Of a stretch of 64,000 bases of DNA, positions 17,917 through 21,453 are shown piece after piece. The number at the start of each line of letters is the position of its first letter. The stretch's first letter is position 1. A program made the position numbers and the translations under genes. Under the pieces are notes generated by a model. It did no database searches, was not told the DNA's origin, and saw nothing but the letters and a program-made list of their open reading frames with translations. This DNA is from Prochlorococcus marinus str. AS9601 (lineage in GTDB: Bacteria; Cyanobacteriota; Cyanobacteriia; PCC-6307; Cyanobiaceae): positions 682,001 to 746,000 of the forward strand of contig NC_008816.1 in assembly GCF_000015645.1 (NCBI RefSeq), given 5' to 3'.

Positions 17917-18828
17917 ATGAATGTAAGTATTGTTATACCGACTTACAATAGATTACCCATACTAGAGAAATGTCTTTTTGCGCTTGAGAATCAAAAATTA
18001 AGTACAAATATAAGTAATTATGAAGTAATAGTAGTTGATGATGGATCAACTGATGGGACAACCTCATGGATAGATAAAAACAAAGCTAATCTCCCACACG
18101 TTATTCTATTTCAGCAAGAACATGGAGGGCCTGCACTTGGAAGAAATCTGGGAGTGATTAAATCGAAATATGAAATTATTATATTCATTGATAGTGATCT
18201 TATTGTTTTAGATAATTTTATAAATTGCCACGTAGAAAAACTACTTGCCTCTTGGAAAAAAAATGATAAAAAATGTTTTACCTATGGCTCTGTAGTCAAT
18301 ACATCTAATTTTCTGAATCCTCAGAGTGAAAAACATAAAATAATGGACACTTCTTTTGCCTATTTTGCTACTGGGAATGTAGCGATATCAAAAGAATTGA
18401 TTTTAAGTGTGGGATTATTTGATACTTCTTTTAGTCTTTACGGTTGGGAGGATTTAGAACTTGGAGAAAGATTAAAAAAAATTGGGACAAAATTAATCAA
18501 ATGTCCAAATGCAGTAGGTTTTCATTGGCATCCGCCATTTAATTGCGAACAAATAGATTCATTAATATCTCAAGAAAAAGAGAGAGCAAAAATGGCTTTA
18601 GTGTTTTATAAGAAACACCCAAATTTAAGGGTTAGATTTATGATTCAATTAACTCCGCTACATAATTTACTTTGGCAAATTCTTTGCTTGGGAGGACTAA
18701 TCAGTGTGGATAGAATTCTTCCTTTATTGAGATTCCTAGTAAAGATAAGAAGAAATAGACTTGCACTTGAGATACTTAGGATCCCTCTAAATATGATTTA
18801 CGTTAAACAATTAACTAAATCAAGATAA
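17917..18828 (+). CDS. Family 2 glycosyltransferase
   Basis: A 303-residue GT-A fold enzyme. The nucleotide-binding start SIVIPTYNRLPILEKCL is followed by VVDDGSTDGT, the metal-binding DSD in IFIDSDLIV, and the acceptor-site GWEDLELGERL. A hydrophobic, basic C-terminal third (about 225-300) suggests membrane association. It would transfer a sugar from a nucleotide donor to a surface polysaccharide, lipid or other acceptor, but donor and acceptor cannot be read from the sequence. It stands alone between the exporter unit and rpsB. Confidence 0.9.
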   Translation: MNVSIVIPTYNRLPILEKCLFALENQKLSTNISNYEVIVVDDGSTDGTTSWIDKNKANLPHVILFQQEHGGPALGRNLGVIKSKYEIIIFIDSDLIVLDNFINCHVEKLLASWKKNDKKCFTYGSVVNTSNFLNPQSEKHKIMDTSFAYFATGNVAISKELILSVGLFDTSFSLYGWEDLELGERLKKIGTKLIKCPNAVGFHWHPPFNCEQIDSLISQEKERAKMALVFYKKHPNLRVRFMIQLTPLHNLLWQILCLGGLISVDRILPLLRFLVKIRRNRLALEILRIPLNMIYVKQLTKSR

Positions 18829-18854: not shown

Positions 18855-18863
18855 TGCTAGAAT
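18855..18863 (+). promoter_or_regulatory. Putative extended -10 element of rpsB
   Basis: TGCTAGAAT reads as TG, one base, TAGAAT. It would place the transcription start near 18870, so that both inverted-repeat pairs of the rpsB leader lie inside the transcript. The leader would be about 88 bases. Confidence 0.35.
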
Positions 18864-18882
18864 AATCGAAATAAATTTCACA

Positions 18883-18945
18883 CATCTGACAGTTTCGGGT
18901 GAATTATTAATTTAATTCCCCGTCAGATGGAGGCTAACCCGAAAC
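18883..18945 (+). promoter_or_regulatory. rpsB leader with two interlocked inverted repeats (H-type pseudoknot candidate)
   Basis: Two perfect complementary pairs occur in the order A, B, A', B'. A is CATCTGAC (18883-18890) with A' GTCAGATG (18922-18929). B is GTTTCGGGT (18892-18900) with B' ACCCGAAAC (18937-18945). This order cannot form two nested hairpins; both stems together make a pseudoknot, or they alternate. A GGAGG sits between A' and B' (18929-18933), 24 bases before the rpsB ATG. The arms are GC-richer than their surroundings. S2 feedback on rpsB-tsf is established in Escherichia coli, so an autoregulatory leader is the natural reading. Confidence 0.7.
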
Positions 18946-18957
18946 CCTTTTTAAATT

Positions 18958-19662
18958 ATGGCTGTTGTATCACTATCAGAAATGATGGAAGCTGGTGCTC
19001 ATTTCGGGCACCAAACTAGACGTTGGAATCCCAAGATGTCTAAGTATATATATTGCGCGAGAAATGGAGTTCATATTATTGATCTTGTAAAAACAGCATT
19101 GTGTATGAACAACGCTTATAAATGGACGAGAAACGCTGCAAAAAGCGGTAAACGTTTCTTATTCGTCGGTACAAAAAAACAAGCATCAGATGTAGTAGCG
19201 CAGGAAGCTACACGCTGTGGAGCTGCATATGTAAATCAAAGATGGCTTGGAGGGATGTTGACTAATTGGACAACAATGAAAGCTAGGATTGAAAGATTAA
19301 AGGATCTAGAAAGAATGGAAAGTAGTGGTTCAATAGCAATGAGGCCTAAAAAAGAAGCTGCAGTATTAAGGAGAGAACTTGAAAGATTACAAAAATACTT
19401 AGGTGGACTTAAGGGTATGAGAAGATTACCAGATGTAGTTGTATTAGTTGATCAGAGGAGAGAATCTAATGCAGTCTTAGAAGCTAGAAAATTAGATATT
19501 TCATTAGTATCAATGTTGGATACTAATTGCGATCCAGATTTGTGTGAAGTTCCAATTCCATGTAACGATGATGCCGTTAGATCTGTGCAACTTATTCTAG
19601 GAAGACTTGCAGATGCCATAAATGAGGGTAGAAAGGGCTCTAATGCTGAAAGGAAAAATTAA
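18958..19662 (+). CDS. rpsB: 30S ribosomal protein S2
   Basis: A 234-residue S2 protein with the diagnostic start [19 protein letters not shown], the FVGTKKQA and [11 protein letters not shown] segments, and the late [18 protein letters not shown]2 binds the head/body junction of the 30S subunit. The C-terminus ([11 protein letters not shown]) is short. It is followed 44 bases later by tsf, the usual bacterial pairing. Its 5' leader carries a pseudoknot-capable element described separately, suggesting translational control of both genes. Confidence 0.97.
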
Positions 19663-19706: not shown

Positions 19707-20363
19707 ATGGGAAACATTACAGCAAAACTTGTAAAAGATCTTAGAGACAAAACTGGTGCAGGAATGATGGACTGCAAAAAAGCACTTAACGAAACTGAAG
19801 GGAATCTAGATAAAGCTTTGGAATGGTTAAGAAAGAAAGGCATAGCTAGTGCTGAAAAGAAATCGGGAAGAGTAGCGGCTGAAGGGTCAATTGGCAGTTA
19901 TATACATACTGGATCAAGAGTTGGAGTTTTACTAGAGTTAAATTGTGAAACTGATTTTGTTGCTAGAGGTGATATTTTTCAATCTCTTTTGAAGGATGTC
20001 TCAATGCAAGTAGCAGCATGCCCAAATGTTGAGTATGTATCAATTGATGAAATACCAGAAGATGTTGTGGAAAAAGAAAAGCAGATTGAAATGGGTAGGG
20101 ATGATTTATCTGGAAAACCAGAACAAATTAAAGAAAAAATAGTTGAAGGGAGAATAGCAAAAAGACTTAATGAGCTTGTTCTGCTCTCACAACCCTACAT
20201 TAAAGATAGTTCTCTAACAGTTGAGGATCTTGTTAAACAAGCAGCTGCAAAAATTGGGGAAAATATCAAAGTAAGACGCTTTACAAGATATACATTGGGT
20301 GAAGGTATCGAAAAAAATCAGATGGACTTTGCTGAAGAGGTCGCATCAATGCAAAAAAACTAG
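19707..20363 (+). CDS. tsf: Elongation factor Ts
   Basis: A 218-residue EF-Ts, the short form usual in cyanobacteria. It recycles EF-Tu by catalysing GDP release. The N-terminal UBA-like domain is clear ([22 protein letters not shown]), including the TDF core ([11 protein letters not shown]) that contacts EF-Tu, followed by a single dimerisation-type domain and [12 protein letters not shown]. It is co-transcribed with rpsB. The next gene's open frame overlaps its 3' end, but the likely start of that gene is 14 bases after this stop. Confidence 0.96.
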
Positions 20364-20376
20364 TCACTTTAATGAT

Positions 20377-21453
20377 TTGAATAATTTCAATAATTACATA
20401 GATATAAATAAAATTAATTCTCAATTAGAGAGAGCAGACATACAAAAAGGACTATTAACTAGAAATATCTATAGGGAATATGAACTTTATCTTAATCTAG
20501 TAAGAGATCTACTTTTCATCTCTGTAGAAAAAGGCCTTAATCAAATATATAGTTATCCAACAATAAATGATAATTTCTTAAATGAAAATGAATCCTATAG
20601 TCTTTTTGAAAAAAAAATAAGTAATTTAATATACACGAATTTGCCCTTTTTAACAGTAGAACAATTAAAGATTAATGAAATTGAAAAAAATATAAATAAG
20701 GAAATTAACTTTACTATTTTTGATGGTTCCACAAAAACAAAGGATGATCAAAAAGAAAAATTTCAATACGAAGAAGGTTTTCAATTAAAAGAACCCTCTC
20801 AGTTCGAGATTACTGAAGACTTTTCAAATACTTCTGAATATTATCAAGCTCATAATTATGAAAAATTCGGATCACTTGATTTAGATAATAACCACCATAA
20901 TAATTATTTATCTACAAACAATATTTTTGAAAATTTAGGAGTTGAAAAACAATTTATTTCCTCCTTACTTGAATTAATAGGAGAAGAAAAAGTGGAAAAA
21001 CAAAGATATCAAGTAAAAGAAAATATAAATCAAATGGATAATTTACCAAAAAATAAGATTCTTAATAATTTTGATTTAATTGACAAGTCATTGGAAAATT
21101 TACTATTGAATCTTTCATATAATATTAACCAAGAATTATTTAAGGTAAATCTAATAAAAAAGATGATATCTAAAGATTCCTTTGATTACTTAGTAGGCAA
21201 AAATTTCATGATAAAACATCCATATCCTTTTGTTATTAATTTCGAATTAAACTTAAATCGTTCCTCATTAACCGGCAATAATATTCCAAGCATTATTTTT
21301 TTCAATATATCTACTGTTGAGTTAGAGTTTAAAAATTTAAATCTTTCTATTCAAAGGAACAAAATAAATGAGCTAAAAAATCAATTTCAGCGTTTGATTA
21401 AAAAAGAGACATATTGGAGGCAAAAAGAAATAACCTTGAATAAGATACGTTGA
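20377..21453 (+). CDS. Conserved-looking orphan protein between tsf and recG
   Basis: About 358 residues, starting at TTG 20377 in a frame that is open further back into tsf; no ATG is available near the front. The N-terminal 100 residues are helical (LERADIQKGLLTRNIYREYELYLNLVR). A long polar, asparagine-rich centre (about 120-230) looks disordered, and the C-terminal part is strand-rich. I recognise no domain. Its place directly upstream of recG on the same strand, with 22 bases between, suggests a shared transcript, but I would not infer a repair role from that alone. Confidence 0.6.
   Translation: MNNFNNYIDINKINSQLERADIQKGLLTRNIYREYELYLNLVRDLLFISVEKGLNQIYSYPTINDNFLNENESYSLFEKKISNLIYTNLPFLTVEQLKINEIEKNINKEINFTIFDGSTKTKDDQKEKFQYEEGFQLKEPSQFEITEDFSNTSEYYQAHNYEKFGSLDLDNNHHNNYLSTNNIFENLGVEKQFISSLLELIGEEKVEKQRYQVKENINQMDNLPKNKILNNFDLIDKSLENLLLNLSYNINQELFKVNLIKKMISKDSFDYLVGKNFMIKHPYPFVINFELNLNRSSLTGNNIPSIIFFNISTVELEFKNLNLSIQRNKINELKNQFQRLIKKETYWRQKEITLNKIR

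Follow-up and report, generated by a model that had tools for sequence, protein, structure and literature searches.

A conserved pseudoknot leader upstream of rpsB in Prochlorococcus marinus AS9601 and its probable role in S2 control of a gene lacking a Shine-Dalgarno site

The rpsB gene of Prochlorococcus marinus str. AS9601, encoding ribosomal protein S2, is preceded by two interlocked inverted repeats and a GGAGG, which raises the question of whether these bases fold into a pseudoknot and, if so, whether the fold gates a ribosome-binding site or serves S2 control in another way. The locus lies in a stretch of 64,000 nucleotides, hereafter called the window. In it, rpsB (18958-19662, + strand; 234 amino acids, ATG at 18958; Pfam Ribosomal_S2, E 3.6e-91) is followed by tsf for elongation factor Ts (19707-20363, +; Pfam EF_TS, E 1.3e-35), with which it is presumably co-transcribed, and a glycosyltransferase ORF (17917-18828; Pfam Glycos_transf_2) lies upstream. 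A promoter scan proposed TGCTAGAAT (18855-18863, +), with TG before TAGAAT, as a likely extended -10 element, and a -10-like word of the permissive pattern TGcTAnaaT was present no more than 45 bases from the repeat element in 80 of 84 near relatives. Because the TG-extended box ends at 18863 and a similar word recurs in relatives, the transcription start would lie near 18870 (18869-18871), upstream of both stems.

The first repeat, stem A or P1, pairs CATCTGAC (18883-18890, +) with GTCAGATG (A', 18922-18929, +; parse and alignment), and the second, stem B, pairs the pseudoknot 5' arm GTTTCGGGT (18892-18900, +; inspection, parse, alignment and folding) with the 3' arm ACCCGAAAC (B', 18937-18945, +; parse and alignment). 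The A-B-A'-B' order of exact 8- and 9-bp repeats within 18883-18945, reported in an earlier note on this DNA, was reproduced. That note had also placed a GGAGG between A' and B', 24 bases from the ATG; the distance is correct, but the word occupies 18929-18933 (+) and its first G is the last base of A'. Between B' and the start codon stands a 12-base spacer, CCTTTTTAAATT (18946-18957, +), in which inspection found no Shine-Dalgarno site, and the same interval holds AGGAG-like words in other cyanobacteria. The earlier note had overlooked an inner hairpin, P3, whose arms GAATTA (18901-18906, +) and TAATTC (18913-18918, +) were recognised by folding and inspection. It had likewise missed that, by folding and alignment, the CCC at 18919-18921 (+) is able to pair with the GGG at 18897-18899 (+) and so compete with stem B. 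In pseudoknot geometry a connection of one base leaves little room to span a stem of nine pairs, so not all 17 pairs (eight of P1 and nine of B) need form together.

For comparison, the family was defined as the window's own genome family plus the best 80 S2 relatives listed, which were 98-100% identical and comprised 78 Prochlorococcus and 2 Synechococcaceae. The 208 family leaders were drawn from 78 of these 80 loci, 30 further loci and 100 fetched leaders; L051 and L059, with no leader in the record, and the repeat genomes L211-L216 were dropped, and 176 of the 208 elements were distinct, some species possibly being counted twice between the genome sets. Other leaders of the phylum numbered 57 (17 loci and 40 fetched), and 35 more were then added from three early-branching orders, a number reached after L280, L289, L290 and L294 (contig ends), L307 and L310 (leader absent) and L282, L291, L298 and L313 (repeats) had been dropped. 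Ten of 265 leaders went unparsed in the stem parse and 19 of 300 in the spacing parse; 13 of these 19 were class members in which GGGT/ACCC and AGGAG were present by eye, and the other six (L268-L273), from outside the class, showed no clear element.

The fold is conserved throughout the family. The interlocked arrangement was parsed in all 208 leaders, in keeping with the proposal of an H-type pseudoknot before rpsB, and the E. coli leader is related. Stem A was paired at positions 1-6 in 208/208, at position 7 in 202/208 and at position 8 in 168/208 leaders, through 41 distinct arm pairs that include CATCTGAC/GTCAGATG, CACCTGTC/GGCAGGTG, CACTTGCC/GGCAAGTG and CACCCGCA/GGCGGGTG; relative to the window, one to three pairs were changed on both sides in 124 of the 208, and the observed pairing was reached by 0/2000 whole-arm shuffles. 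Stem B was complete in 208/208 with an invariant core. It took four forms in all, being GTTTCGGGT/ACCCGAAAC in 199 leaders and differing in the remaining nine by one base with the pair preserved as G-U, and thus showed no covariation inside the family. The spacing was 1-2 bases from P1 to stem B and 16-138 bases from B to A', with a variable P3 and no P2. The family leader L196 carried the ACCCGGAAC variant of B'.

Outside the family, the GGGT/ACCC core was near-invariant and the outer pairs of stem B varied; the core's conservation in these counts is partly by construction, because the two words served as parse anchors. Among 46 distinct non-family leaders, stem B pairing was no better than that of shuffled arms (844/2000 as high). 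Compensating forms were found in divergent leaders, namely CTACGGGT/ACCCGTAG in L276, L277 and L279 and TGGGT/ACCCA in L288, L304 and L308, and E. coli has GGGGT/ACCCC. A combined alignment of 105 sequences, E. coli included (all but L277, L288 and E. coli chosen among the parsed leaders), reached 94.1% paired cells and 227 two-sided changes, where shuffles gave 83.1% and 77; 0/500 shuffles were as high, and the whole structure also exceeded all slid versions of itself. In this alignment, all 8 stem A pairs showed two-sided changes, with 98.6% of cells paired; in stem B such changes were seen at the single outer pair, where 60.2% of cells were paired, and at 3 of the 8 pairs that make up the long part. 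The covariation in relatives that the earlier note had asked for in both stems was thus rich in stem A, while stem B was near-invariant in the family and compensated only in divergent lineages.

Searches with existing and new models were used to place the element among known RNAs. At gathering thresholds, an Rfam search of the window returned zero matches. A lax search placed t44 (RF00127) at 18861-18939 on a score of 27.5 bits, under its cut-off of 44 (E 0.00048 for 251 bases), the alignment covering CACA, GGGTG, TGGAGGC and AAC. The model is that of the E. coli rpsB leader, where it scores 83.5 bits, with tff at 189712-189847 before rpsB at 189874. When 20 sources were searched at E <= 1, RF01815 (rpsB), which we take to be the same motif as the rpsB motif described in 2009 and discussed below, gave hits of 25-28 bits (cut-off 40) in 4 of 11 non-family cyanobacterial leaders; none of 8 family leaders was matched by either this model or t44. 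Under strict filters, t44 yielded one match at E <= 1 in 117 class genomes, below the cut-off and not in the window's own genome, and is consequently unfit for counting presence. Falling short of the curated thresholds characterises the models rather than the RNA. Matches to SNORD12, Afu_263 and SAM_alpha in the window were below their cut-offs and were taken as chance.

A covariance model, R1, was built from an alignment (A2) of 32 cyanobacteria, all outside the family. With a score of 50.6 bits and an E of 1.3e-10 in 74 kb, it recovered the whole element at 18879-18945 (+) of the window. Against the whole genome of 1.67 Mb the match had an E of 3e-9 and the next an E of 7, and an exact pattern likewise found the element in single copy. 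The E. coli rpsB leader, searched as a 1.2-kb stretch only, was matched weakly, in the right place, with a score of 21.4 bits and an E of 0.003 in 74 kb. With strict filters R1 matched 107 of 146 class genomes, at one place each; the 39 that it missed include, among the listed rows, 8 family genomes, all 8 of which bear the element by parse. The match lay just upstream of rpsB in 7/7 top-scoring genomes compared by eye (G190, G174, G196, G169, G194, G164 and G172); the relatives' leaders had been fetched via rpsB and hold that position by construction. Of the leaders outside the class but inside the phylum, L268 gave a weak match (217-290, 18.6 bits, E 0.016), and five others outside the class, L269-L273, were unmatched by R1.

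The rpsB motif consists of P1, P2, P3 and a pseudoknot between the P2-P3 junction and a 3' extension of P1, and it occurs in Cyanobacteria, where P2 is absent or very short (Meyer 2009, PMC2704228). Considering the model matches together with this description, the window element is, as judged from its sequence, a member of the described motif, with which it shares the place before rpsB, P1, a variable P3, a junction pseudoknot with bases 3' of P1 and the absence of P2. It differs in a pseudoknot of nine pairs instead of the five described, in the lack of a downstream Shine-Dalgarno site and in a P3 extension that competes with the pseudoknot. The kind of element, Cyanobacteria included, has thus been known since 2009, and what is new is modest: a series of cyanobacterial leaders some of which have the ribosome site and some of which do not, a GGAGG that has been retained, and a P3 extension in competition with stem B. 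The literature covered on cyanobacterial S2 leaders, start sites and Shine-Dalgarno loss at rpsB, which left most subscription journals outside its scope, yielded no paper on the subject other than Meyer 2009, where Cyanobacteria are named, and five passages of PMC7368042 contained nothing on an rpsB leader. The alignment could seed a cyanobacterial Rfam model, the present models falling below thresholds on the leaders tested.

Homology to the S2-regulated leader of E. coli makes S2 control the best explanation of the element, and it is probable that the window carries a picocyanobacterial rpsB leader RNA whose pseudoknot, when stabilised by S2, lowers initiation at rpsB. The autoregulation of E. 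coli rpsB-tsf by S2 through its leader, cited in the earlier note, is reported in a review (PMC10931766), according to which excess S2 represses the operon through the 5' UTR, S1 is needed as a companion, the ribosome site is outside the operator and the mechanism is unclear. By analogy, S2 in excess over 30S subunits would bind the leader, perhaps with S1 as in E. coli, and the bound protein would stabilise the pseudoknot, whose last pair at 18945 is 12 bases before the ATG. The folded stem would then occupy the space needed by a 30S subunit loading at the start codon, and initiation at rpsB would fall, that at tsf with it. Weighing against this explanation, stem B shows no covariation inside the family, and its support comes from the mixed set and the divergent lineages. 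Leaders of the rpsO/S15 type, in which the repressor stabilises a pseudoknot near the start codon, are comparable in how they work; they differ in gene, fold and sequence, and no membership is claimed.

The P3 extension complicates the assignment of the S2-bound state. In the window the GGG in stem B has an alternative partner in the C run that precedes A'; pairing there lengthens P3 past a bulged U, and the nested minimum-energy fold of the leader uses this extension. When the stretch from B to A' was folded alone, the GGG was paired inside it with a mean probability above 0.5 in 208/208 family leaders; the corresponding non-family figure of 52/65, with 8 rows left out, is rough owing to a shift in the A' frame, and the aligned rows were counted for that reason. 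At least two extension pairs were possible in 42/43 family, 55/61 other and 0/1 E. coli aligned rows, and column 85, the C facing the last G, was C in 43/43 family rows and 27/61 others. The energies calculated for the window were -19.8 kcal/mol for P1 with the extended P3, -12.3 for P1 with the short P3 and -13.0 for the isolated B duplex, and once a pseudoknot penalty is allowed for, the two folds may be of the same order. A two-state switch in which P3 extension and stem B share the GGG is therefore plausible on these models. The fuller proposition, that S2 (with S1) locks the 9-pair pseudoknot of such a two-state RNA and so represses a gene without a Shine-Dalgarno site, is offered tentatively. 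If true, autogenous control would have outlived the ribosome site that it once covered, retuned to S1-dependent initiation, and this lineage, which comprises the most abundant photosynthetic cells, would have a two-state S2 leader.

The same folding results could also be read in reverse, with S2 binding the nested hairpin (P1 and P3 extended by GGG/CCC, with the bulged U and an internal loop) and the pseudoknot representing the unbound state. This assignment, for which the pairing of the GGG throughout the family and the minimum-energy fold speak, is considered rather unlikely: the C side is variable outside the family, the E. coli row lacks the extension, and the invariance of B' would need another reason. 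Covariation cannot decide on GGG/CCC pairing, because the GGG is invariant.

S2-stabilised closure of the pseudoknot would act differently from what the earlier note had supposed, namely that the fold hides or presents GGAGG as the ribosome-binding site of rpsB. In its favour, GGAGG is the only strong anti-Shine-Dalgarno complement near the rpsB start, with none between the pseudoknot and the ATG. The word ends, however, 18-28 bases before the ATG in the family (median 23). Moreover, in E. coli and in cyanobacteria outside the family it is accompanied by a distinct site that is well placed: the E. coli leader reads GTGGAGGCATAACCCC followed by TATAGAGGTTTTAATCATG, and here too the motif GGAGG precedes the pseudoknot 3' arm and a separate GAGG stands 8 bases before the ATG, the upper part of the structure being longer than in the window. 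When a Shine-Dalgarno-like word was defined as GGAG, GAGG, AGGA or AAGG between the ACCC core and the ATG, it was present in 73/73 parsed non-family leaders, often abutting or overlapping B' (ACCCGAATAGGAG, ACCCGTAGGAG), against 1/208 family leaders, the sole exception being L196 with an AAGG ending one base before the ATG. The distance from ACCC to ATG was nevertheless kept, with a median of 20 (15-24) in the family and 22 (16-28) outside. The spacing parse had an A' frame shifted by about 2 bases in 26 non-family rows and the family row L210, leaving the Shine-Dalgarno count and the alignment unaffected.

The loss of the Shine-Dalgarno site at rpsB is part of a wider loss in the lineage. Such a word preceded tsf, where its start was recognised, at 0/111 family loci against 46/55 others, and it preceded 3/37 ATG-start ORFs of at least 150 amino acids in the window. 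Prochlorococcus is thought not to depend on Shine-Dalgarno sites, according to PMC5607370. The motif word was retained in 208/208 family leaders despite this loss, as GGAGG in 196 and GGTGG in 12. For this reason it is read as a conserved part of the RNA motif and is probably not a ribosome site; such retention would fit a role in the structure or in protein contact. Not every leader has the word, and some, such as L277 and L288, carry GGTTT or GGTTG instead. Gating of GGAGG as a ribosome site by the fold is accordingly improbable, and a Shine-Dalgarno-sequestering leader is not supported as the type of control: the purine run is 18-28 bases from the ATG, the relatives use another site and the lineage rarely has such sites.

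In early-branching leaders the motif is without its GGAGG, and an AGGAG either shares bases with the pseudoknot 3' arm (ACCCGTAGGAG; L276-L279, L281) or lies directly against it (ACCCATAGGAG; L288, L304, L308); in the first of these groups, part of the ribosome site would be masked once the pseudoknot closed. S2-stabilised closure could thus cover a Shine-Dalgarno site in other cyanobacteria, where it abuts or overlaps the pseudoknot 3' arm. In the window's lineage the site is gone, the stem has nine pairs and the spacing is kept, so that repression would have to act on a site-independent, probably S1-dependent, loading of the ribosome. The cyanobacterial series forms a natural experiment, the same RNA occurring with a Shine-Dalgarno site that overlaps, abuts or is absent, and could show which features S2 control depends on (the fold, the spacing and the GGAGG motif) and which it can do without (the ribosome site).

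Sensing of a ligand other than S2, such as S1, EF-Ts, the 30S subunit itself or a small molecule, appears still less probable. The requirement of E. coli S2 for S1 as a companion, given in PMC10931766, would allow for it, but R1 found one place per matching genome, upstream of rpsB wherever this was compared, and the related E. coli leader answers to S2 (PMC10931766; PMC2704228).

Chance repeats, a DNA-level element or a terminator can hardly be entertained, despite a terminator-like match at 18883-18901 and the frequency of short interlocked repeats in AT-rich DNA, given the stem A covariation, the absence of equally high values among 500 structure and 2000 arm shuffles, and the single genome copy. 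The stem of the terminator-like match combines bases of P1 with bases of B, a pairing other than the conserved one. The earlier note's remark that chance was unlikely holds insofar as 39/20000 dinucleotide shuffles of the 129-base leader contained interlocked exact repeats of at least 8 and at least 9; shuffles alone do not settle the matter. The 64-kb window has 43 merged places, this element included, where repeats of 7 and 7 interlock within 80 bases, and it is conservation with covariation that rejects chance.

A few irregularities were met among the annotated frames. The rpsB of genome G100 (L103) contains one in-frame TAA and that of G424 (L310, L311) gave two matches in a shifted arrangement, both probably assembly errors. 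In the window, the mechanical ORF list includes a 384-amino-acid frame with a GTG start (20299-21453) that overlaps the end of tsf by 65 bases, and its true start is probably further downstream.
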